A stretch of 28,789 nt of DNA from a virus: IMG/VR virus record IMGVR_UViG_3300036761_000812, positions 1 through 28,789 of that record. One strand, given 5' to 3'. Shown here piece after piece: positions 2,270-28,604 of this stretch. The position numbers and the translations under genes were made by a program. Every line of letters starts with the position of its first letter. Position 1 is the first letter of the stretch. Below the pieces are notes generated by a model. That model ran no database searches and had not been told where the DNA came from. It saw nothing but the letters and a program-made list of their open reading frames with translations.

Positions 2270-3727
2270 ATGTCCGCTATTTATACCCCGCCAGGAGTGG
2301 ATGTTGAAGTACTAGATAACCCCAGACTTATCAATTTAGGCGAAGCCGCGAGAATTACAGCTATAGTAGGAATGGGACCTACCACAAGAATTGTAGCCGA
2401 TGAGGCCCTTGTTAGAGGTACTGGTTCTATTGATTACTTAAGTAACTATCCCGGTACTAATTTTAGCGTATCTCAGATAGCTGAGTATCCTGGTTTATAT
2501 TCAGGACTTGTTAATTATATACTTCGTTCCTCTGGAGGAGGTTTATATAGTTTAGCTACCGCATCTATTAACGCTACTGGTTATATTACGTGGCCTGGAG
2601 GTACTGTTACTGATATACCTTCCGCAGGTACTACTTATTACGTATCTTATACTTTTAATGTTCCTGATTCCCAATATACACCTTCCTTGTTTAACGATAA
2701 GCAGATGATTAAAGCTAAATTTGGTGCCGAAAGCGTATCAACAGGTATCCTTTCTATAGCTGGTTCTATTAACTTGGAGAACGGACCACCCGCAGTAATG
2801 TTATGTCAATCTCAGGGTTCTTCTTATAATGAACAATCCTATAAGGATGCTATCGATAAGTTAAAAAAATATGATTTCGTCGAGCAGGTTGTAGTAGTAT
2901 TTCCATCAGGTTCTGTAACTAGAGCACAGCAAGAAACTATTTTAACTTATGCTTTTAATCATGTATTAAGTATGGGGCAGAGCCGAAAAGAAAGAGGCCT
3001 TGTATCAGGTTCTCCTTCTTCACTTTACGCGTCTGGAGGTTTTGATATTATTGGCACTCCTGCAACTTCAGGTACCTATACATATAGGTCCACTGCAATC
3101 AAACAGAAGAATAGTATTTACGCGGTCCCTTCTGTTTGCTACAGAGTAGATGAAAGCGGAAATACCATGTTGTTAGATGGTAATTTTGCAGCTGCTGCTA
3201 TTGCTGGAAAACAATGCTCTCAGCGTTTAAGAAGTACTCCTATTACTGGAATGGCTATTACAGGTGTTACGATGGATGATGAGAAATGGAACGATTCTGA
3301 AATGAATTTCCTCGCATCCAGTGGTTGTTTAGTATTACAAAGTAAATCTGGAATAATTAAAATAAGAGATGCTATTACAACAGATCCAGCAAATGCGGAT
3401 ACTCAAGAAATGAGTGTTATATCTCAGGAAAGATTAGTTAAAAGATCTTTAAGAAATGGTTTAGAGAATACCTACAAAGGTAAGGGTAAAGTTATATTAC
3501 CGACAACTCCTAATGATGTTATAGCAACTACTGAAGCTATATTAAGAACTTTAGTTAAAGAAGGAGAGATATACGGTTACGGAACTATTGATGATCCTGT
3601 TACAGGCGAGACTAAAATATCTGCTAAACAAAACTCAACGGAACCGAGAGCAATCGATGTGACATGCAGTGTGAAATACTTATACCCTTTAAAATGGATT
3701 CGCGTGACTGTCAGTACGTACGTCTAG
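2270..3727 (+). CDS. Contractile tail sheath protein
   Basis: 485 aa. The N-terminus (YTPPGVDVEVLDNPR) matches the extended N-terminal strand with a PGV motif common to phage sheath proteins. The central region carries the usual variable beta domains. The C-terminal third has the conserved pattern of a sheath core: ITGMAITGVTMDD, a region of loss of conserved length, then ISQERLVKRSLRNGLE, and a beta-rich ending (VTCSVKYLYPLKWIRVTVS). Sheath subunits stack around the tail tube and contract on infection. GGAGGA at 2257-2262 gives a strong translation start. It is the first gene after the probable promoter at 2165-2192, and the tube gene follows at 4343, as expected for a myovirus tail operon. 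Confidence 0.85.
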   Translation: MSAIYTPPGVDVEVLDNPRLINLGEAARITAIVGMGPTTRIVADEALVRGTGSIDYLSNYPGTNFSVSQIAEYPGLYSGLVNYILRSSGGGLYSLATASINATGYITWPGGTVTDIPSAGTTYYVSYTFNVPDSQYTPSLFNDKQMIKAKFGAESVSTGILSIAGSINLENGPPAVMLCQSQGSSYNEQSYKDAIDKLKKYDFVEQVVVVFPSGSVTRAQQETILTYAFNHVLSMGQSRKERGLVSGSPSSLYASGGFDIIGTPATSGTYTYRSTAIKQKNSIYAVPSVCYRVDESGNTMLLDGNFAAAAIAGKQCSQRLRSTPITGMAITGVTMDDEKWNDSEMNFLASSGCLVLQSKSGIIKIRDAITTDPANADTQEMSVISQERLVKRSLRNGLENTYKGKGKVILPTTPNDVIATTEAILRTLVKEGEIYGYGTIDDPVTGETKISAKQNSTEPRAIDVTCSVKYLYPLKWIRVTVSTYV

Positions 3728-10149: not shown

Positions 10150-12363
10150 TTGGCTGATATTAACGCTGATATAGGCGGAACTACTAATAATGTTGTAAGA
10201 CATGTAAGTCCCAACGCCGCTGTCTTTTTTGTTAAGGGATTCGGGCAGGAAATTATAGCACAAGAGGTAATAATTGCTGATAATATTAAAGATGAAAAAA
10301 CTATTGCTTCTATTGATGTTACTCTTACCGTTAGAAACAGTCCTGGTACCTTTACTTTACAGTTAAGAGATCCTGATAACATATTTATTTTGGAAGATAA
10401 TCCTAATACTGAGATAGCAGCCTTAAAGAAAAATAGTCAGGCGAAGATTTATACTAGAGTAATGGGGGAGGAGAAGAAGGTAGTTGAAGATAAGAAATCA
10501 GGTCATACTTCCGGTTCTGTAACTTCTATTAATAAAGAATATCAATCTTATCCCGGAGAGTATTACTCTTGGCAGGATTATAACGACTGGTCTAAAGGAT
10601 ATCATATTGTTTTAGAAGATACTAAGACTAAACAAAGATATCCTACTCAATTTATTACAACTGAAGGTACTGTAAAAGAGAGATGGGCTTTTGATGAATT
10701 AGGTAATATTATATATGTATCTCTCCAAAGTTCAAAATACACAGACGTGCCTACCGAAGAGGCGTTATTAGCCGAGTTTGGAAGTTCTAGTACTACTAAA
10801 GAAAAAAAGTTTAGGATATCTAATGTTGACGGCAGCTTGAATGTGACAGAAAACCCTCTTATAGCTCACCGTTATTATAATAAGGAACTCGTCGATGGAC
10901 CCTACAGAGATTACAATGAGCAAGGCCCCCCCGGCCTGTTTCCGAAAGGTAAATGCCGGGTATCTCCTATGGATAGAGTTATAATTTTTATGACTCCGCG
11001 ATTTGATAAAGATGGACACTTTAATCAAGGTGATAATGCTACTTATATGACTCCTGTTTTTACTGGGGTTGTTAACTCTGCTCAGCAAGGTTATAGCGAT
11101 GGTCAGCATACTATTACAGTACAGGGAGAAGATGTTACAAAATATTTAAAACTATCTATAATTAACGTAAACCCCGCTTTAAATACGGGCAGAGAAATAG
11201 CGGGTCAATATAAGGACGAACCTATTACGATTTGGGCCCATATATTTTTAGGATTAACTATCCCCGAAATTATTAGAGTTATTTGTTTAGGTACTGAAAG
11301 TTTATCAGGCGGGCGAAGAGGTACTCTTAATCAAAAAATAGATGGAGTAGGTTTTTATAAGTTAGCCGCTGATAAAGGCGATCTAAAATTCTATGAGTAT
11401 AATCCCAGTACTGATATGCCGACTCTTGAAGATAAAATGTCTGGAGTGCAGGTAACTAAAGCTAGTTTTAAGGAGACTTTGGGAAGTTTATTTAGCAATA
11501 TTGCTGTACATATATATGATCCTTACCGACAAGGTGGTGCTATTGATTTAGAAGGTTGGCGACCCTATGCATTATCTTTAGGTAATAATTGGAGTTTTTA
11601 CCAAGCTGATTTTAAGACTAGAAGAGATATAGCTTATAAAGCCGCAGAAGATAGTTTTTTTAATTTTTATGCTGATAGAAAAGGACATATTTGGTTTCAT
11701 CCATATCGTTACGATATTTCTTGGATACTGGGGGCCAAAAATCCTAAAGTATATATTATAGATAATCCCAGTATTATAAGTTACGGGTTTATAGAAGATG
11801 ATAGCGAACTATTTACTGAAGTTCAGGTTTCTACAGAACCCTCTTTTGGCATGGGGGAATTAAATAATATTGGCTTTTATACTGGTGCTATTAGAGATGA
11901 TAATGCTATGTTAAAATATGGGCAAAGAATCTTTGTTGGAGTAAATCCCGTAATAAATGTTAATGTTTCAAAAAGTCCTTATGTTAAAGAAACAGAACCT
12001 TCCATTAATAGAGGGATGATATCCGCATCTATTAATATTTTTGCAAAATCTTTATTGAAAAGACTTTTAGCAGGAAAATATCAAGGACAAGTTACTATAG
12101 TTGGAAGACCAGAGATAGATCCTGGAAGACCCGTTTATATACCTATACGTAATATGATTTATTATGTAGAGACTGTAGAACATTCTTTTACTTTTGGAAA
12201 TACTTTTACAACTACTTTACACTTAAGTTACGGAAGGAAGCCTTGGGAGTTTCTACCAGAGTTATTAACTTTTTCTGAGAATGACGAAATTTATCTAACG
12301 GACGCTACTGTTTTTGATAGAAGGAAAGGTACGGAGTTACAAGGTGACGATACGAACAAATGA
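10150..12363 (+). CDS. Baseplate hub protein (gp27/XkdQ-like)
   Basis: 737 aa from a TTG start with CCGGAG (10137-10142) seven bases upstream. The early part has FTLQLRDPDN, a hub-like strand near residue 70. The middle contains FTGVVNSAQQGYSDGQHTIT, then VQGEDVTKYL, the T4 gp27/XkdQ-type barrel signature of a tail hub. The end has IDPGRPVYIPIRNMIYYVET, then VEHSFTFGNTFTTTLHLSYGR, the classic hub ending. Hub proteins link tube to spike and are the first assembled part of the baseplate. An insertion of about 150 residues (roughly 110-250, Lys/Glu/Tyr-rich) separates the first strands from the barrel and may be a host- or lineage-specific domain. The amidase gene overlaps its end by 20 bases. 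Confidence 0.75.
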   Translation: MADINADIGGTTNNVVRHVSPNAAVFFVKGFGQEIIAQEVIIADNIKDEKTIASIDVTLTVRNSPGTFTLQLRDPDNIFILEDNPNTEIAALKKNSQAKIYTRVMGEEKKVVEDKKSGHTSGSVTSINKEYQSYPGEYYSWQDYNDWSKGYHIVLEDTKTKQRYPTQFITTEGTVKERWAFDELGNIIYVSLQSSKYTDVPTEEALLAEFGSSSTTKEKKFRISNVDGSLNVTENPLIAHRYYNKELVDGPYRDYNEQGPPGLFPKGKCRVSPMDRVIIFMTPRFDKDGHFNQGDNATYMTPVFTGVVNSAQQGYSDGQHTITVQGEDVTKYLKLSIINVNPALNTGREIAGQYKDEPITIWAHIFLGLTIPEIIRVICLGTESLSGGRRGTLNQKIDGVGFYKLAADKGDLKFYEYNPSTDMPTLEDKMSGVQVTKASFKETLGSLFSNIAVHIYDPYRQGGAIDLEGWRPYALSLGNNWSFYQADFKTRRDIAYKAAEDSFFNFYADRKGHIWFHPYRYDISWILGAKNPKVYIIDNPSIISYGFIEDDSELFTEVQVSTEPSFGMGELNNIGFYTGAIRDDNAMLKYGQRIFVGVNPVINVNVSKSPYVKETEPSINRGMISASINIFAKSLLKRLLAGKYQGQVTIVGRPEIDPGRPVYIPIRNMIYYVETVEHSFTFGNTFTTTLHLSYGRKPWEFLPELLTFSENDEIYLTDATVFDRRKGTELQGDDTNK

Positions 12364-14203: not shown

Positions 14204-15835
14204 ATGAATACTTGGTATCTAATAGGATGTAGTGCTAAGAAAGCATCTACCCCTCAAACACCTGATTTATTATATCAAGGGCCTCTTTTTGTACAGCCTT
14301 TTAAGTATTGTGAAAAGATATACAAACCGGAAGAAGGAGATAGAATATTCGTATTAAGTGCAAAGCATGGTTTATTACATTTAAGACCTAATCTGTCCTA
14401 TATGGAGGTTATTGAGCCTTATTCTTTTGATTTAACAAGGGCTAACAAAAGTACTTTGAGGAAGTGGGGAGGTATGGTGGCTATACAACTTGATCAATAT
14501 ATTTCGAAATATCAGATACCTTATCCTCTTAAGTTGGTATTTTATGCACACCGTCACTATAGAGACGCCCTAAAACCTTTTATAGAAGAACTCCAGATAT
14601 CTGTGGAAGTTCCCTTACTGGGGGTAGTAAGAGGAAAACAAGTTAAATATTGGAAACATAAATTAAATGATATGTTTGAAGGAGAATCAAAGGAAAGTTG
14701 GAGAGACCATCCTGTGATGTTAACTCAAAAGGGGGGCGCTTATATAAAATCTGATTACAAACCACAAATTGAAGGAAATTTTATGAAAGCGTTGTCCGAA
14801 ATGAAATTACAGAAAAAATCAAATACTGTTAATTCTAAAGGAGGCTACTTTGGGGTTAGAGCCATCGACCAATTCCCCGCAAAGTTCATGGAATATATTA
14901 ACTCTTGTGATTCCTTTACTGATGTTACAGCTGGTTCCGGACTTTTCCCCCGCTATCTGGCTAGTTTAGGTAAAAAAGTTAATATATCTGATAGGTCTTA
15001 TTACTCCTATTTAATGCTTCGAACCTTATCCCGTAACCTTTCCTTTACAGGATCTTACGAAGACTGGTTAAAAGATACTTATGGACAGATAAAGGGCATT
15101 TTAGAGACTCCTTTTACAGGTTATTTGTGTAATAATGAAATCTTATCTAAGAAATTTTCTTTGGAGACTGCTAAATTTATTGATTCTTATTGTAGATTTT
15201 ATCAGAGTAATGTTTTAATGTTATATGCGTTAGGTAAAGTATTCTCTACCAAGTTTAGTTTTAGGGGCTTAGGGTGGTGTAATAAAACTACCGCTGGGTA
15301 TAAGAGTAACGAAGTTACTCCAAGTACTATGGCGGAATGGATTATAAGAACTGCTAATTTAATTATGTTAAGATTAACTGAACTGGACGAACGTTTCTCC
15401 GTTCCCGATATATTCTATGGAGATGTTTTACAAGCCTTAGATTCTTTTAAAGTTAAGGATGGTATGGTTTATGCAGACCCCGCCTGGCCTTGGAGCGAAA
15501 AATTTCCTGGGACTAACCCTTATATATGGCAGACATATGATATTTCCAGCATCTTGACACAGACTAAGATTCCTGAAGTAAGATTTTGGCAAAGAGAAGA
15601 TACTATAGATTCTATACTAGAAGAAATTAAAGGTTGGGGGGATAGGGCTTTCGAAAGAGGGGCAAAATACTTTGTAGTATGCAATCAAGATACTAATTAC
15701 CCAAGTTGTGAAGAAGTATTTGATTGGTTTAGTAAGAAATTTAATACTGTTGAAATTATTTATAATTATGAAGATTATAGTAGCGCAGCTGGTAGAAAAT
15801 ATACAACCGGTTGGGGGATATATACCAAGGAATAA
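14204..15835 (+). CDS. Fusion: DUF6884-like domain + D12-type adenine DNA methyltransferase
   Basis: 543 aa. Residues 1-150 look like the DUF6884 group: IGCSAKK (7-13), LLYQGPLF (22-29), FVLSAKHGLL (49-58), and PLLGVVRGKQVKYW (137-150). Residues 210-543 look like an amino-methyltransferase of the D12 class. SKGGYFG (211-217) matches motif X. DVTAGSG (240-246) is the SAM-binding motif I, NISDRSYYSYL (260-270) motif II, and YADPAWPW (423-430) the catalytic DPPY/DPPW motif IV with Ala in the third position. Such enzymes methylate adenine N6 in DNA. Motif order fits the alpha class, with target recognition between I and IV. The first domain may recognise or make another modification; its activity is not known to me. 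RBS AGAGGAAA lies just upstream. No restriction partner was seen. Confidence 0.7.
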   Translation: MNTWYLIGCSAKKASTPQTPDLLYQGPLFVQPFKYCEKIYKPEEGDRIFVLSAKHGLLHLRPNLSYMEVIEPYSFDLTRANKSTLRKWGGMVAIQLDQYISKYQIPYPLKLVFYAHRHYRDALKPFIEELQISVEVPLLGVVRGKQVKYWKHKLNDMFEGESKESWRDHPVMLTQKGGAYIKSDYKPQIEGNFMKALSEMKLQKKSNTVNSKGGYFGVRAIDQFPAKFMEYINSCDSFTDVTAGSGLFPRYLASLGKKVNISDRSYYSYLMLRTLSRNLSFTGSYEDWLKDTYGQIKGILETPFTGYLCNNEILSKKFSLETAKFIDSYCRFYQSNVLMLYALGKVFSTKFSFRGLGWCNKTTAGYKSNEVTPSTMAEWIIRTANLIMLRLTELDERFSVPDIFYGDVLQALDSFKVKDGMVYADPAWPWSEKFPGTNPYIWQTYDISSILTQTKIPEVRFWQREDTIDSILEEIKGWGDRAFERGAKYFVVCNQDTNYPSCEEVFDWFSKKFNTVEIIYNYEDYSSAAGRKYTTGWGIYTKE

Positions 15836-16429: not shown

Positions 16430-17125
16430 ATGGCTACTAAAACAGAAAAAGAAAAAGCATTAGAAGCTACTATAGCAAGTCTGGAGAAGCAATTTGGTAA
16501 GGGCACTATAATGCAAATGGGTAAAACTCCTATAGAAAAAATAGGAGCTATTCCTACTGGTTGCATGTCCATAGATGAAATTACTGGTATAGGTGGAATT
16601 CCCAGAGGAAGAGTAACTGAGGTATTTGGGCCGGAGATGTCTGGTAAAACTACAATGTGCCTTCATATAATAGCACAAGCTCAGAAATTAGGGGGTATGG
16701 CTGCTTTTATTGACGTAGAACACGCTCTTGATTTAAATTACGCTTCTAATATCGGGGTTAATGTAACTAGTTTATTGATATCTCAACCAGACTATGGAGA
16801 ACAAGCTCTTGAAGTAGCAGACGCTTTGATAAGAAGTAACTCTGTAGATATTGTTGTAGTAGACTCCGTAGCAGCTTTAGTCCCAAAAAGTGAATTAGAG
16901 GGAGAAATGGGAGACTCCACCATAGCCCTTCAAGCACGTTTAATGTCTAAAGCTTTACGGAAACTTACGTCTAATGTTAATAAATCTAATACAGCTTTAA
17001 TATTTATAAATCAACTTAGAAGTAAAATTGGGATTATGTTTGGTAATCCCGAATGTGTTGATCCTTATACTACGGAGGTTGAATTGGAAGTTCCCGAAGA
17101 TATTTATAAAATATTTTTTGAGTAA
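16430..17125 (+). CDS. recA-N: RecA N-terminal part (residues 1-208) fused to 23-aa N-intein
   Basis: Encodes the first 208 residues of a clear bacterial-type RecA: TGCMSID (43-49), Walker [10 protein letters not shown] (67-75), catalytic Glu in FIDVEHALD (E97), Walker B IVVVDS (141-146), and the L1/L2 region [17 protein letters not shown] (192-208). Directly after GNPE the sequence leaves RecA and reads [16 protein letters not shown] and so on for 23 residues to TAA. This matches intein block A with catalytic Cys1. The missing RecA part starts at TTPGGNALKFY in the gene at 18142. RecA drives strand exchange and homologous recombination; this fragment lacks part of loop L2 and the C-domain, so it should be inactive before trans-splicing. 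The ribosome binding site is a weak GGGG at 16421-16424. Confidence 0.93.
17054..17122 (+). other. N-intein segment (IntN, 23 residues)
   Basis: Codes for 23 residues from C1 to E23, with the block A pattern Cys-x4-T-x2-V-x-L. Cys1 is the expected first nucleophile. It is strongly acidic (seven Asp/Glu, one Lys), matching a basic start of the partner IntC. The known class of 'atypically split' phage inteins has IntN of about 25 residues; this fits that size. Confidence 0.85.
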
Positions 17126-17183
17126 ACCCTTGAATTTTTTCCTCCTATACTTATATATCATAAGTAACAACGGGAGAAAAAAA

Positions 17184-18149
17184 ATGGATTTATTATTAAA
17201 ATATTTTAATATTGTTATAACGAAGAATTTTTTGGTAAAACTTAAGTTTAAGAATGAATTTAAAGTTAAACATATGAAAAATATTAGGAAAATTATTCCG
17301 AAAGTAAATGGGCCTTCATTGGAATATTATCAATATCATTTGGGGGGAGACACCGGAAGACAGATTTTTAATGAAAGAAAGAAATATTTCGGGTATCAAA
17401 AATTAGCAGAACTTGTAATAGCGAATAAACTTTATGATAATGACGTACAATTAGCTGGAATACAAAAGAAAGTTTTACAAAATAATCAAAATATTAAAAA
17501 AGGTGTTATAGAATCTCAGCCTAAAACTTGGCATAATCCAGATTATGTATCCTCTTTGTTGAAAAAAAGAGCAATATCTATGAGTAAATTAGATTTTTCC
17601 TTAAATAAAAGTAAAAAAGCAAAAGAGTACTGGGCTAGCGATAGGGCTATAGCCCACCGAGAAAAGATTTCAAAAAATCACAAAGAGGGTAAAAGTTTCT
17701 CTTTAGTCAAATGGCAAATAGAAAATGGAGTAAAACATAGTTCTTCTTTATTTCTAAGAAAAGGAAAAAATTTAAATTATTTAGAATATTTGTTTAGTTT
17801 GATGTTAGATGACTTTAGTATATTTTATGAAATAGAACAAAATATTAAAATTGATAATATTAATTATTTTCCAGATTTTTTTATACCGAGATTGCGTTTA
17901 ATAATTGAATTATTTGGTGATGTTTGGCATTGTAATCCTTCTTTAGTTAAAGTTTTTGAAAATAGTAAAGATATCTCTCCTTTTAAAAAAGATCCTAAAA
18001 TAGTATGGCAAAAGGATAAAGAAAGACAAGATACTTTTTTAAAAGCCGGTTATCGTTACTTGGTTTTTTGGGAAAACGAGTTTTCTTTTGGCCGATTAGA
18101 AAGAATTTATAAATTTTTAATAAAAATAGAAAAGGAATTACATGGATAA
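17184..18149 (+). CDS. EDxHD (Vsr-like) homing endonuclease inside fractured recA
   Basis: 321 aa from ATG 17184, which has GGGAG (17172-17176) nearby. The same frame is open further upstream through recA, but that part has no such signal and is a shadow. The C-terminal nuclease domain shows NYLEYLFSLML (198-208), YFPDFFI with D231, LIIELFGDVWHCNP with E242, D246 and H249, then KDKERQDTFLKAGYRYLVFW. This matches the PD-(D/E)XK/Vsr-related EDxHD family that accompanies split inteins and includes I-Bth0305I, a recA-targeting enzyme. The N-terminal half is basic and likely binds DNA. It would spread the locus by cutting intact recA genes. It sits between the recA halves and overlaps the third gene by eight bases. 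Notably richer in A/T codons than recA. Confidence 0.85.
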   Translation: MDLLLKYFNIVITKNFLVKLKFKNEFKVKHMKNIRKIIPKVNGPSLEYYQYHLGGDTGRQIFNERKKYFGYQKLAELVIANKLYDNDVQLAGIQKKVLQNNQNIKKGVIESQPKTWHNPDYVSSLLKKRAISMSKLDFSLNKSKKAKEYWASDRAIAHREKISKNHKEGKSFSLVKWQIENGVKHSSSLFLRKGKNLNYLEYLFSLMLDDFSIFYEIEQNIKIDNINYFPDFFIPRLRLIIELFGDVWHCNPSLVKVFENSKDISPFKKDPKIVWQKDKERQDTFLKAGYRYLVFWENEFSFGRLERIYKFLIKIEKELHG

Positions 18150-18540
18150 GAAGTATATAAAAGTTAAAATTACTTTAGGAACTTTATTTAAAAAATTAGG
18201 CGTGAAAGATTTTAAAACTCCTTCTGTTTTACCAGTTGATACTTTAGGAATTAGAATAAAATCTTTTGATACTGCATTATCTCAGGATGTTTTTTCTTTA
18301 ATAAAAGATTTAGTAGTAAAAGCTCCAGTACCTTATCATTTTATTCTAAAGTCTCTGAATGGACAAGAATTAAAAACATCTAGTCATCATAAGTCTTATA
18401 AAGATAAAGAATGGGTTGAATCATTTAAAAGATTTGAGTTAGAAGAAGATCATCTTAAAGTCGAAAAACCTTTAGATATTGTAGATTTGACAGTGAAAAA
18501 TACTGAATGTTATTATGCTAATGGTCAATTAAACCACAAT
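18142..18540 (+). other. C-intein segment (IntC, 133 residues)
   Basis: Codes for the intein part carrying blocks B, F and G. The first 25 residues are basic (eight Lys against two Asp), complementary to the acidic IntN. No endonuclease domain lies inside; with IntN the intein totals 156 residues, a mini-intein size. The splice junction lies after Asn133 (base 18540). Confidence 0.85.
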
Positions 18541-18951
18541 ACTACACCTGGCGGTAATGCTCTTAAATTTTATGCTTCTATGAGAATTGATATAAGGAAG
18601 AAAACGGCTATTAAACAAGGAGATCGTACTGTTGGTAATATAACTAAGGTAAAAATTGTAAAAAGTAAAGTATCTCCTCCTTTTAGAGAAACTGAGGTTA
18701 GTATTATTAGTCCTTATGGAATAGATATAATAGGGGATATATTAGACAAGGCGGTAGATTTTAAAGTTATAAAGCAAGGCGGGGCCTGGTTTACTTACAA
18801 AGAAGATAGATGGCAAGGTAGGGATTCCGTAACGGACACTTTAAAGAAGGATCCTATATTTTTAGATCAGGTAAAATCCGAAGTATTAGTAGCCATGAAA
18901 GAAAATAAGGAAGTTGTTAAAGAAAAAGAAGTTTTACCACAATTAGTATAA
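18142..18951 (+). CDS. recA-C: 133-aa C-intein fused to RecA C-terminal part
   Basis: 269 aa starting at ATG 18142, with AAAGGA (18131-18136) upstream. Residues 1-133 are the C-terminal intein part: block B TxxH at T79-H82 (LKTSSHH), block F VDLTVKNTECYYA, and block G ending NGQLNHN with penultimate His132 and terminal Asn133. Residue 134 (Thr) is the +1 extein residue, starting TTPGGNALKFYASMRIDIR, the exact continuation of RecA after GNPE. The rest is the RecA core end (GNITKVKIVKSKVSPPFRETE) and a short C-domain. Splicing with the gene at 16430 gives RecA of 344 aa. The block F His common in many inteins is replaced (Glu/Cys there), as in some phage inteins. It is translationally coupled to the endonuclease gene. 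Confidence 0.92.
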   Translation: MDKKYIKVKITLGTLFKKLGVKDFKTPSVLPVDTLGIRIKSFDTALSQDVFSLIKDLVVKAPVPYHFILKSLNGQELKTSSHHKSYKDKEWVESFKRFELEEDHLKVEKPLDIVDLTVKNTECYYANGQLNHNTTPGGNALKFYASMRIDIRKKTAIKQGDRTVGNITKVKIVKSKVSPPFRETEVSIISPYGIDIIGDILDKAVDFKVIKQGGAWFTYKEDRWQGRDSVTDTLKKDPIFLDQVKSEVLVAMKENKEVVKEKEVLPQLV

Positions 18952-24968: not shown

Positions 24969-25180
24969 TGTTTGAAATAATATTACCGGATGCTATTGAA
25001 ATTAAGTTTGCTGACTGGGTAAAACCAAACATGCTTAAACAAAGAAAAGAAAGTGAATATTTTTATGCTAAGATTATGAGAGTAGGAGCAGATTGTTCTA
25101 GTGGTATTATGATAGGTAATGGTAATAACTTCTTAGATTTATATTATTTCGCTGATGTTAAAATACTAAAGAAATCCTAA
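24965..25180 (+). CDS. Hypothetical small protein, 71 aa
   Basis: Start chosen at ATG 24965 because it overlaps the preceding TGA (ATGA) and has AGGA (24956-24959) five bases upstream; the in-frame ATG at 24959 lies inside that site. The protein is beta-rich (MFEIILPDAIEIKFADWVK, YFYAKIMRVGADCSSGIMI). No family recognised. Its last base is the first base of the Rad50-like gene. Confidence 0.55.
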   Translation: MMFEIILPDAIEIKFADWVKPNMLKQRKESEYFYAKIMRVGADCSSGIMIGNGNNFLDLYYFADVKILKKS

Positions 25181-26433
25181 TGCTTCAGAAACTAATTTTA
25201 AAAAACTTTCAAGCTCATAAACATTCTGAAATTGAATTCTCTCCCGACGTTACATGTATTACCGGGCTTAACAATCACGGTAAAAGTTCTATTTTTAGAG
25301 CCCTTCAAAAATGTATAAGAGACATTCCTGAAGGTAATTCTTTTATAATGAATACTCCCTTTCAAGAAGATACTTGTACCATTACTGTAGTGTCTGATAA
25401 AGGGGAAGTTATACGACAGGTGAAAAGGAATATTGCTTCCGATGCTAACTTTTATAAAGTAAGTAGAATTGATGGTACCGAAGAAGAATACGTTAAGTTT
25501 GGAAAAACAGGAATTCCAGAAGAAGTTACTAATAACTTTCCTACTTCACCTCCTCAAATGTTTGGCGACGTGGAAATCGATATGAATTTTCATAATCAAT
25601 TGGATTCTTTATTTCTGATTCAAGGCGCTGGTCTTTCCTCTTTACGAGGTAAGGTATTAGGTAAGACTACTGGGGTGGATAAAGTACAAAGGGCCATTCA
25701 AATAAGTTCCTCCGAAGAGAAGAAAGAGAAGCAAATCTTAAAAATTCTAAAGCAACAGTCAGAAGATGTAGCGGTTAAATTACTTGAGTATAAAGATATT
25801 GATACCTTCTTAAAACTATTAGTTAGTTGCGAAAATCTTTTTCAGGAAACAGAGGAGAAAAGAATTTTAATTACTAATATAATAGGTTGTTACGAAATTC
25901 TTAAAAACATAGTAACTAAAGCTAAGCAATTAAAAATTACTATTAAAGTAATAGATATTGATTCTTTAAAGGAATTTTTTCAAAAGATAACTCAGACTTA
26001 TAATGTATATAATCTTGCCAACAGATTATTAACTACTAAAGAACAGATTACTTATTCTCATCAAGTATTAGAAATAACCAAAGTAGTTCCTACGGAAGAC
26101 TATCAAGTCCTACAGAAGAAATTATCTCTCTTAAAGAAACTAAAAGATTTATATAGTATTCAAATTAGATATAATGATACTAAACTGAAAGTGGCTTATA
26201 TTAATTCTCTTTTACCCTCTTTGGAAAGTAATAATTATCATATTATTCAGAGTCTATCTAAGTATAATAGTTTATTTACTATACAGGATACTTTATTTTT
26301 ACTAAAGAAGAGAATAATTGATAAACAGCAGATTATATCGAATAAAATAAACGAACTTAGTAGTACCGAACTAGAATTAACTAATTTTAAAAAAGAAATT
26401 AAAGTATGCCCGACATGTGGAAAGGCTTGGTAA
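25180..26433 (+). CDS. Half-length Rad50/SbcC-like ATPase ending at a zinc-hook motif
   Basis: 417 aa. The start KLILKNFQAHKHSEIEF (4-20) and Walker A GLNNHGKSS (29-37), with LFLIQGAGL (Q-loop, about 144-152), match the N-terminal ATPase lobe of Rad50/SbcC. From about 180 the protein is a long Lys/Glu/Leu-rich probable coiled coil. It ends with CPTCGKAW (410-417), a CxxC like the Rad50 zinc hook. A complete Rad50 would return along the coiled coil to a second lobe with ABC signature and Walker B; none is present here or elsewhere in the window. With the Mre11-like gene at 26814 it should form a DNA-end processing complex. Whether it hydrolyses ATP alone is doubtful. Confidence 0.75.
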   Translation: MLQKLILKNFQAHKHSEIEFSPDVTCITGLNNHGKSSIFRALQKCIRDIPEGNSFIMNTPFQEDTCTITVVSDKGEVIRQVKRNIASDANFYKVSRIDGTEEEYVKFGKTGIPEEVTNNFPTSPPQMFGDVEIDMNFHNQLDSLFLIQGAGLSSLRGKVLGKTTGVDKVQRAIQISSSEEKKEKQILKILKQQSEDVAVKLLEYKDIDTFLKLLVSCENLFQETEEKRILITNIIGCYEILKNIVTKAKQLKITIKVIDIDSLKEFFQKITQTYNVYNLANRLLTTKEQITYSHQVLEITKVVPTEDYQVLQKKLSLLKKLKDLYSIQIRYNDTKLKVAYINSLLPSLESNNYHIIQSLSKYNSLFTIQDTLFLLKKRIIDKQQIISNKINELSSTELELTNFKKEIKVCPTCGKAW

Positions 26434-26434
26434 T

Positions 26435-26827
26435 ATGAGAAATATACTTGTTTTATTTTGTTTATTATTAACAATAAAAGTTTTAGGTCAAGAAGACGGG
26501 GACTTAAGATTTAACGAAAATAAAAATTATATAGAGATTTATGTGGATTGCTATGAAGAGGAGAGTATTCCCATATGTTCTATTGCGAATGGCGATTCTG
26601 TTTGGTGGTTTAAGACGGCTAGAAAACACACACAGGGATGGTTTAATGTAGATACTCTTTATACAAAATATGGCGATTATTTTCACCCCTGTACTTGGGG
26701 ACCTTACTACGACATACGTACAATAGTATATATGAGAAAATTGCTTGATGTCCTCCTAGACGAGAAGATATATAGAGATTATTACTACTTTTATATTAAT
26801 GGAAGACCGCATAATGATTATAGGTAA
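26435..26827 (+). CDS. Secreted or periplasmic protein with signal peptide, 130 aa
   Basis: Start at ATG 26435, two bases after the Rad50-like stop, with AAAGG (26421-26425) upstream. Residues 1-19 (MRNILVLFCLLLTIKVLGQ, cleavage likely after Gly18) are a clear signal peptide: basic start, hydrophobic core, then acidic mature start EDGDLRF. The mature part is acidic and aromatic with three Cys (in VDCYEEE, PICSIA, PCTWG). No lipobox. No family recognised. It sits between the two nuclease-complex genes, with its end overlapping the Mre11-like start, so it is co-expressed with proteins that work in the cytoplasm. Could act in the envelope, for example against superinfection, but this is not shown. 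Confidence 0.6.
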   Translation: MRNILVLFCLLLTIKVLGQEDGDLRFNENKNYIEIYVDCYEEESIPICSIANGDSVWWFKTARKHTQGWFNVDTLYTKYGDYFHPCTWGPYYDIRTIVYMRKLLDVLLDEKIYRDYYYFYINGRPHNDYR

Positions 26828-27764
26828 TTTTACAGATTTGCACGCGAGAGCCGATACTCCTCAAGGAAGAACCGATAACTTCCGCAAGAGTATTCTTACT
26901 AAACTTGAGGAGATAGGACAGATCTGGAAAGATAACAAAGTAGAGATTGTTACTTTTACAGGAGATTTATTTGATAGTCCCGACCCTGCTTCTAGTGTGC
27001 GTAATGATGTAATATCAATTCTGAAGTCCTGGCGGCTACGCATTGTAGGGGTCGTAGGCTCTCATGATTATTTTGGTTACCAGATGAAAACTTTGAAGCG
27101 TACAGCTTTAGGGTCATTATACTATGCGGGTATTATTGACTTAGTAGGAGGAGCAGACCAGAAAGAGTACGTAGAATTTAGGCTTAAAGATTTTACTGCT
27201 GTTATTACAGGTACCCCTCATACTTACTGGGCAACTGATAATCTATTATATATAGAGAAGCCACGTTATGTGGAAGGAGCATTTCAGATACAATTAGTTC
27301 ATTTTGATCTTATGAATAAGACAGTTCCTTGGCCGCATCTTACAATAGGGCAGATAAGAACAAGTTCCGATGTAGCATTCTGTGGGCATTATCATCCTGG
27401 TTGGGAAGTTCCGGTTATGGGCAAAGACCACTGCTTGTTTATAAATCAGGGTTCTATAGGGCGTTTGGATAATACCGGCAAACAGCGAACTCCTAGAGTG
27501 TGTATATTACAGTTAACAGATTCATTTAGTCCGCCGGATATTACTTATGTATCATTGCAATCAGCTTTACAACATCCGTTTAAGGAATATATAAAAGAAT
27601 CTAAAGAAATTAAGTCACAGGATATAAGTAAATTACTACAAATGATGGAGAACACAGATATAAACATTATAGACATTAAAACTGTACTTCCGAAAGTAGC
27701 GAAAGAATTTAATTTCGGGGAAGATGTTTTATCTAAAGCGTTTGAATTATTAGAAAAAGTATAA
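26814..27764 (+). CDS. Mre11/SbcD-like metallophosphoesterase (DNA nuclease)
   Basis: 316 aa from ATG 26814, which has GGAAG (26801-26805) eight bases upstream; the in-frame ATG at 26799 lacks such a site. Metal motifs: D8 and H10 (FTDLHA), GDLFDSP (D51), GSHDYFGY (H84), LVHFDLM (H163), and CGHYHPGW (H192, H194). The usual Asn of GNHD is Ser83 here. The C-terminal part (after about 240) is helical and may contact the Rad50-like partner encoded at 25180. Such nucleases trim DNA ends and cut hairpins. Overlaps the end of the preceding gene by 14 bases. Confidence 0.82.
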   Translation: MIIGNFTDLHARADTPQGRTDNFRKSILTKLEEIGQIWKDNKVEIVTFTGDLFDSPDPASSVRNDVISILKSWRLRIVGVVGSHDYFGYQMKTLKRTALGSLYYAGIIDLVGGADQKEYVEFRLKDFTAVITGTPHTYWATDNLLYIEKPRYVEGAFQIQLVHFDLMNKTVPWPHLTIGQIRTSSDVAFCGHYHPGWEVPVMGKDHCLFINQGSIGRLDNTGKQRTPRVCILQLTDSFSPPDITYVSLQSALQHPFKEYIKESKEIKSQDISKLLQMMENTDINIIDIKTVLPKVAKEFNFGEDVLSKAFELLEKV

Positions 27765-28031: not shown

Positions 28032-28604
28032 ATGTATACCATAACCAAACAATTCGATTTTTGTTACGGGCATAGAGTATGGTCTCAAACCCTGAATACC
28101 GAATTTAGTTTGGACTCTTGTCTTGCTTGCAGGCACCTTCATGGGCATCAGGCGAGAGTAATTGTATATTTACAGGCGGATACTCTCGTATCAGGAATGG
28201 TGACTGATTTCAAGCATCTTAATTGGTTTAAGAAATGGCTCGATGATGTATTGGATCATAAGTTTATTATGGATATAAATGATCCTTTATTAGTTTATGA
28301 AATACCTCATCTTTTTGACGGTCATAGAAATTTAAAGCGGGATTATTTAGTAAAACACGCAATAGATGGGGGTTATTATACTCTTTATTTAGAAAAACTA
28401 GATGTTCTTAAATATGATTCTGCGTTGACAGAAAAATATGAAGGAATGGTTATAGTAAATTTTGTTCCTACTTCTGAAAATTTAAGTAGTTGGCTTTTTG
28501 ATATAGTAAATGAAAGAATGAAAAGATTGTTTGTAAAAGTATCAAAAGTGGAATTTTTTGAAACCCCAAAATCAAGAAGTATATATACAGACGGTGGAGT
28601 CTAA
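28032..28604 (+). CDS. queD: QueD-like 6-carboxy/pyruvoyl-tetrahydropterin synthase with insertion
   Basis: 190 aa. Zinc ligands H14 (FDFCYGHRVW), H37 and H39 (CRHLHGH) with catalytic Cys33 four residues before H37, MVTDFKHL (56-63), DHKFIMD (76-81), TSENL (148-151) and FFET with E177 are the QueD/PTPS signature. QueD makes 6-carboxytetrahydropterin, a step to preQ0 and queuosine; in phages it often serves 7-deazaguanine DNA modification. The length exceeds the usual 120 residues: about 70 residues are inserted between DHK and TSEN (80-147). No preQ1 riboswitch was seen upstream. FolE, QueE, QueC or DpdA genes are not in the window; they may lie to the right. Confidence 0.85.
   Translation: MYTITKQFDFCYGHRVWSQTLNTEFSLDSCLACRHLHGHQARVIVYLQADTLVSGMVTDFKHLNWFKKWLDDVLDHKFIMDINDPLLVYEIPHLFDGHRNLKRDYLVKHAIDGGYYTLYLEKLDVLKYDSALTEKYEGMVIVNFVPTSENLSSWLFDIVNERMKRLFVKVSKVEFFETPKSRSIYTDGGV

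Follow-up and report, generated by a model that had tools for sequence, protein, structure and literature searches.

A single gene of a bacterial virus encodes a protein in which a DUF6884 domain is joined to a methyltransferase-like domain, and this fusion of two known domains is real and apparently new. The window analyzed here is the entire IMG/VR virus record, 28,789 bases in length, and within it the gene forms one uninterrupted open reading frame of 543 codons, as seen in the window's open reading frames and their translations. Its parts are as follows:

14204 to 15835, plus strand: fusion gene (543 aa), with an ATG start, a AGAGGAAA Shine-Dalgarno-like site and a TAA stop
14216 to 14656, plus strand: DUF6884 domain (PF21818; PADLOC PDC-M57A), residues 5 to 151, from Pfam and PADLOC matches and with its invariant residues kept
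14228 to 14242, plus strand: CxxxK motif, C9 to K13, conserved in DUF6884 domains
14354 to 14377, plus strand: LSAKHGLL motif, residues 51 to 58, the second putative active-site motif
14657 to 14820, plus strand: inter-domain linker, residues 152 to 205, containing the ATG at 14783 (M194)
14846 to 15832, plus strand: predicted D12/Dam-like (COG3392-like) methyltransferase domain, residues 215 to 543, from hhalign with controls, a multiple sequence alignment (MSA), AlphaFold2 (AF2) and Foldseek/VIA
14921 to 14941, plus strand: SAM-binding motif I, DVTAGSG, residues 240 to 246, from the alignment
14987 to 15010, plus strand: motif II region, SDRSYYSY, residues 262 to 269, matching NDxEYYSY of COG3392-like enzymes
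15470 to 15493, plus strand: motif IV, YADPAWPW, residues 423 to 430, where relatives have YLDPPY

The G+C content is the same in the two halves of the gene (0.346 and 0.350) and therefore gives no hint of an assembly join. The internal ATG at 14783 is preceded by a Shine-Dalgarno-like AAGGA site, AAGGAAATTTT. Such sites precede 12 of the 26 likely gene starts in the window, compared with 35 of 490 other ATGs, so a separate product could also arise from this codon, and it could be a stand-alone methyltransferase.

The first-pass annotation had placed a DUF6884-like domain in the first 150 or so residues on the strength of four motifs. All four are present in the translation (C9-S-A-K-K13; LYQGPLF, residues 23 to 29; LSAKHGLL; and PLLGVVRG, residues 137 to 144), and profile searches bear out the domain: Pfam PF21818 matches at an E value of 4.4e-24 (85.6 bits, where the cut-off is 30), and PADLOC PDC-M57A matches residues 1 to 154 at 1.7e-21. 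In an alignment of 10 DUF6884 proteins, all 13 invariant columns are kept in the fusion protein (C9, K13, L23, Y24, F29, S52, A53, G56, L57, Y73, Y119, P137 and G144), among them residues of the LSAxxG motif, which reads L51-S-A-x-x-G56. The cysteine and lysine of CxxxK occur in all but one of 65 distinct DUF6884 domains, the exception having a gap there. The passages of the Pfam paper that treat DUF6884 describe it as a distant relative of YaaA (DUF328/PF03883) with the YaaA-like "cantaloupe" fold, describe DUF6884/YaaA proteins as DNA binding with a positive cleft, and place YfjM among DNA-lesion interactors (PMC11701544). Carried over from the family, a YaaA/DpdC-type fold would thus be expected for the DUF6884 domain of the fusion protein. 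The earlier expectation of a "DUF6884-like or TGT-related fold" stands in its first part only, since those same passages make the fold YaaA/DpdC-like; the tie to TGT is instead genomic, through a DpdA neighbor and one fusion. A search of the DUF6884 alignment against PDB sequences returned nothing significant, with YaaA (5caj) at an E value of 0.06. A single-sequence AF2 model of the whole fusion protein reached a pLDDT of 36.8, and its Foldseek matches were meaningless and not used.

The description of this half as a domain of unknown activity no longer holds entirely, as PADLOC lists DUF6884 as the candidate defense protein PDC-M57A. The fusion protein might accordingly be read as a defense or counter-defense protein akin to candidate PDC-M57 (DUF6884 plus a GIY-YIG-like effector), with DUF6884 sensing base modification and the methyltransferase marking self DNA. 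The PDC-M57A match and the M57A-M57B fusions of Bacillota point this way. However, M57B is matched neither in the fusion protein nor among the scanned neighbors, no GIY-YIG or other nuclease partner lies in or beside the gene among those neighbors, and the gene sits among phage DNA-metabolism genes, adjoining recA. We regard a defense role as rather improbable. Members of the DUF6884/PDC-M57A family, including Bacillus subtilis YfjM, share CxxxK, LSAxxG and a whole-domain match with the fusion protein; they are usually stand-alone proteins of around 140 aa, and those of Bacillota often carry a GIY-YIG-like half, whereas the fusion protein carries a methyltransferase and lies on a long branch.

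DUF6884 also occurs in other composite proteins. An open reading frame at L011:5314-6573 and those of L318 to L324 combine DUF6884 with a GIY-YIG-looking second half of about 250 to 330 aa, which in L318 is PADLOC PDC-M57B; open reading frames of this DUF6884 plus GIY-YIG size were found in 7 of 348 Bacillota genomes and in one virus. In a Bacillota genome (L317:1468-3390, minus strand), a carbon-nitrogen hydrolase of the nitrilase superfamily is fused to DUF6884, an arrangement of note given the nitrile chemistry of preQ0. In five viral loci (L047, L053, L057, L063 and L064), DUF6884 lies within a longer phage protein, and an XkdF-like protease domain follows it in both of those scanned (L047 and L053).

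The C-terminal half was not matched above cut-off by any Pfam, PHROG or NCBIfam family, and PF02086 (D12) was likewise unreported. A COG3392-like D12 profile, built from bacterial loci and labeled here from sequence features rather than from the COG library, aligned by hhalign to residues 221 to 532 (probability 95.5, P = 1.4e-8, 279 columns). The real sequence scored 64.2 on this profile, compared with at most 26.0 in 200 shuffles and 19.8 for the next-best open reading frame of the window, and a viral-enriched COG3392-like profile agreed (P = 1e-6). Generic profiles matched weakly (D12, P = 0.004, in the correct register at motif IV; N6_N4, P = 0.05), so the COG3392-like branch is required for the assignment. 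The alignment pairs YFG..R with motif X, DVTAGSG with DLFAGTG, SDRSYYSY with NDxEYYSY and YADPAWPW with YLDPPY. By sequence, then, the C-terminal two thirds are assigned to a divergent D12/Dam-like SAM-dependent amino-methyltransferase domain, which agrees with the adenine-type methyltransferase and the motifs X and I proposed earlier. COG3392-like D12 enzymes (PADLOC MTase_II PDLC03257), Dam, T4Dam and DpnM share with it the motif order X-I-II-(insertion)-IV, an NDxEYYSY-like motif II and the overall fold; in contrast, identity to them is 12 to 21%, motifs I and IV are changed, the Pfam D12 cut-off is not reached and the fusion protein adds an N-terminal DUF6884 domain. With an MSA of relatives, AF2 gave a model of the methyltransferase domain with a pTM of 0.68 and a confident core, for which Foldseek ranked Escherichia coli Dam first and VIA gave Z scores of 10 to 11 for T4Dam, DpnM and Dam, alongside many other methyltransferases; because the MSA rows are COG3392-like relatives, the model and its structural matches are partly circular and not independent of the profile result. 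Because MAFFT placed methyltransferase rows over the N-terminal half, a combined MSA of the two domains was not used.

At motif IV the domain departs from its relatives. As the first-pass annotation noted, DPAW (residues 425 to 428) stands in place of DPPY/DPPW; every full-length relative examined keeps DPPY. A degenerate motif IV means that the methyltransferase may be inactive or changed in substrate; DPAWPW may thus reflect an altered substrate, lost activity or a plain insertion in DP..PW. If activity were lost, the C-terminal half would be a pseudo-enzyme with a methyltransferase fold, serving the DUF6884 enzyme solely by binding DNA, and both the replacement of DPPY and a fall in AF2 confidence directly after motif IV are consistent with this. 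However, the domain retains motif I as well as the motif II acidic residue, and an alternative alignment of motif IV as DP-(AW)-PW would retain the proline and aromatic residue. We consider a pseudo-enzyme improbable.

The first-pass annotation did not recognize the fusion as a described family, and counts in phage collections found no second example: a methyltransferase fusion occurred in 0 of 80 viral DUF6884 loci from IMG/VR (15 open reading frames exceeded the length of a single domain, of which 9 were read and 7 scanned, the remainder being near-copies), and DUF6884 lay within 4 kb in 0 of 43 viral COG3392-like loci. Neither the fusion nor a relative of its C-terminal half was recovered by tblastn of phages and plasmids or by peptide patterns in IMG/VR (full length, N-terminal half or C-terminal half). 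A codon pattern for YADPAWPW in IMG/VR yielded no C-terminal-half relative, and a degenerate pattern for motif X, run against IMG/VR and GTDB, matched three times but never in a methyltransferase. The IMG/VR methods reach close relatives only, so rare distant fusions may exist. The DUF6884 passages of PMC11701544 mention neither a methyltransferase fusion nor a 7-deazaguanine linkage.

Among viruses, DUF6884 genes show a strong link to 7-deazaguanine DNA modification. In 27 of the 80 viral DUF6884 loci, a gene for DpdA, QueC, QueD, QueE, FolE or a queuosine-precursor transporter lay within 5 kb, compared with 0 of 43 viral methyltransferase loci (Fisher P = 1.7e-6, over loci that are partly non-independent because some are near-copies); in the other 53, no pathway gene was nearby. 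The neighbor families came from blind clustering of all open reading frames at the 80 IMG/VR loci with no families preselected. After DUF6884 itself, the top families were a DpdA-like TGT, QueC, QueD, QueE and FolE, with ParB and the queuosine-precursor transporter (QPTR) lower, and PHROGs confirmed the enzyme names. Most DpdA genes, detected with a home-made profile since PF01702 alone recovers few phage DpdA proteins, lay less than 100 bp from DUF6884, and complete queC-queD-queE-folE-dpdA clusters were frequent. In one viral open reading frame, a DpdA-like TGT and DUF6884 are joined (L089:8447-10456), and an annotated dpdA adjoins DUF6884 in Halorubrum virus HRTV-29 and, together with a queuosine-precursor transporter, in Fusobacterium phage phiFN37. 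On the idea that DUF6884 might take the place of QueF, clear copies of QueF were present in 0 of 27 versus 2 of 50 records, the remaining PF14489 matches being weak and probably FolE. The reverse association is weak, with DUF6884 in only 6 of 80 DpdA loci, which makes it an accessory step at most.

What that step might be is suggested by DpdC, a DUF328/PF03883 protein of the Dpd system that hydrolyzes dPreQ0 to dADG (PMC12839542) and belongs to the same distant superfamily as DUF6884. Stand-alone DUF6884 proteins match DpdC models at 8e-6 to 1.7e-4. These matches, the chemistry of DpdC and the kinship with YaaA make DpdC-like tailoring, by analogy, the leading hypothesis for the pathway-linked DUF6884 members. 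DpdC is a single-domain protein of about 310 aa, whereas the fusion protein has two domains and gave no match to DpdC models up to an E value of 1.

We also asked whether the link extends to the copy in the window, where one pathway gene is present:

28032 to 28604, plus strand: QueD-like 6-pyruvoyl-tetrahydropterin synthase with a CxxxHGH motif (PF01242, 9.8e-27; PHROG 2389, 2e-34)

This queD lies at the right edge of the window, with 185 bases left before the contig stops, and is the sole 7-deazaguanine pathway gene there; dpdA, queC, queE and folE are absent from the 28.8-kb window, which is a fragment. Among the viral loci nearest to the window's DUF6884 domain, 10 of 11 were pathway linked, compared with 17 of 69 others. 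In the tree, the nearest rows are linked ones, and the window copy forms a long branch whose placement is unsupported. Profile scores were nearly equal, at 90.5 bits with the linked and 95.4 bits with the unlinked profile (leave-one-out AUC of the classifier, 0.89), so that the classifier leaves the window copy undecided with a slight lean to unlinked, and this outcome lowers confidence in the 7-deazaguanine link for this copy. That the window's DUF6884 copy belongs with the pathway is therefore a tentative proposition, a little short of evenly balanced.

The window holds several other features. The recA gene (16430 to 18951) is split at GNPE^T by an apparent, atypically split intein with a short N part and a C part ending in ...NGQLNHN^TTPGG. 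A free-standing open reading frame between the two intein parts (17028 to 18149) looks Vsr-like by eye and has no Pfam match. This arrangement resembles the "fractured genes" of viral metagenomes. A DnaG-like primase is encoded at 1362 to 2168, and an SbcC/SbcD-like pair (an AAA_23 ATPase and a calcineurin-type phosphoesterase) at 25180 to 27764. The tail sheath protein (2270 to 3727) is nearest to those of large myophages, Bacillus phage G among them, and a baseplate-like protein (10150 to 12363) to one of a 485-kb uncultured phage; with such kinships, the contig probably comes from a far larger genome.

From the domain identity, the conserved residues and the family's genomic linkage, all observed here, we infer the chemistry of the fusion protein. 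That it is a base-modification enzyme in the broad sense is probable, and the earlier suggestion of a combined DNA-modification enzyme remains the most likely role. The more specific model, a two-domain phage DNA-base modification enzyme pairing a DpdC-like DUF6884 step with methylation of the same DNA, could equally prove right or wrong. In this model, DUF6884 would bind DNA with base flipping, as the family literature suggests, would accommodate the flipped-out (7-deaza)guanine in its Cys-Lys pocket, and would convert the C7 substituent that a DpdA transglycosylase had installed, for instance by the DpdC reaction, in which the dPreQ0 nitrile becomes an amide; the assignment of nitrile or side-chain chemistry to C9 and K13 is by analogy with DpdC. 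The methyltransferase domain, judging from its fold and motif I, would then methylate adenine N6 or the new exocyclic amide or amine on the same DNA. Both marks might be placed in one binding event, hiding the genome from host restriction, and DpdA and the remaining preQ0 pathway genes would either be encoded outside this 28.8-kb fragment or come from the host. Protection from restriction is established for 7-deazaguanine phages (PMC6884629). Counting against the model are the degenerate motif IV, the missing DpdC match of the fusion protein, the pathway genes absent from the window, the majority of viral DUF6884 loci without a pathway neighbor, and the GIY-YIG-like and nitrilase fusions of DUF6884 elsewhere.

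A simpler reading, which we find somewhat unlikely, is an orphan Dam-type phage adenine methyltransferase to which DUF6884 adds a DNA-binding or base-flipping module, so that N6-methyladenine evades restriction with no 7-deazaguanine. The Dam-like C-terminal half, a window without dpdA and a classifier that does not put the window's domain in the linked group are in keeping with it, as are the DNA binding, positive cleft and lesion interaction ascribed to this family in the DUF6884 passages of PMC11701544. However, the putative catalytic CxxxK and LSAxxG residues have all been conserved, something a module serving only to bind would not require; DPAWPW deviates from the DPPY of all full-length relatives examined; and the collections searched gave no second case of the fusion. 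A variant of the two-domain model has the halves work one after the other on a single base: first, DUF6884 would make a 7-carboxamide or related group from DpdA-inserted dPreQ0, and the DPAWPW Dam-fold domain would methylate the new side-chain nitrogen, not adenine, giving an undescribed N-methylated 7-deazaguanine. Methylation of a 7-deazaguanine side chain in DNA reportedly has a precedent in DpdM, a phage dPreQ1 methyltransferase; DpdM is said to have a fold not seen before among nucleic acid methylases, hence unlike the Dam-like fold of the fusion protein. We regard sequential action on one base as improbable.

For the family, the most useful by-product of this analysis is a connection, which may be new, with phage 7-deazaguanine modification; complete gene clusters and one open reading frame joining TGT to DUF6884 tie the domain to it. 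The fusion is a natural bifunctional construct for testing DUF6884 activity beside a methyltransferase. If the proposed chemistry is true, one gene would give the phage two layers of anti-restriction protection, and DUF6884 would be a marker for discovering new modified bases.
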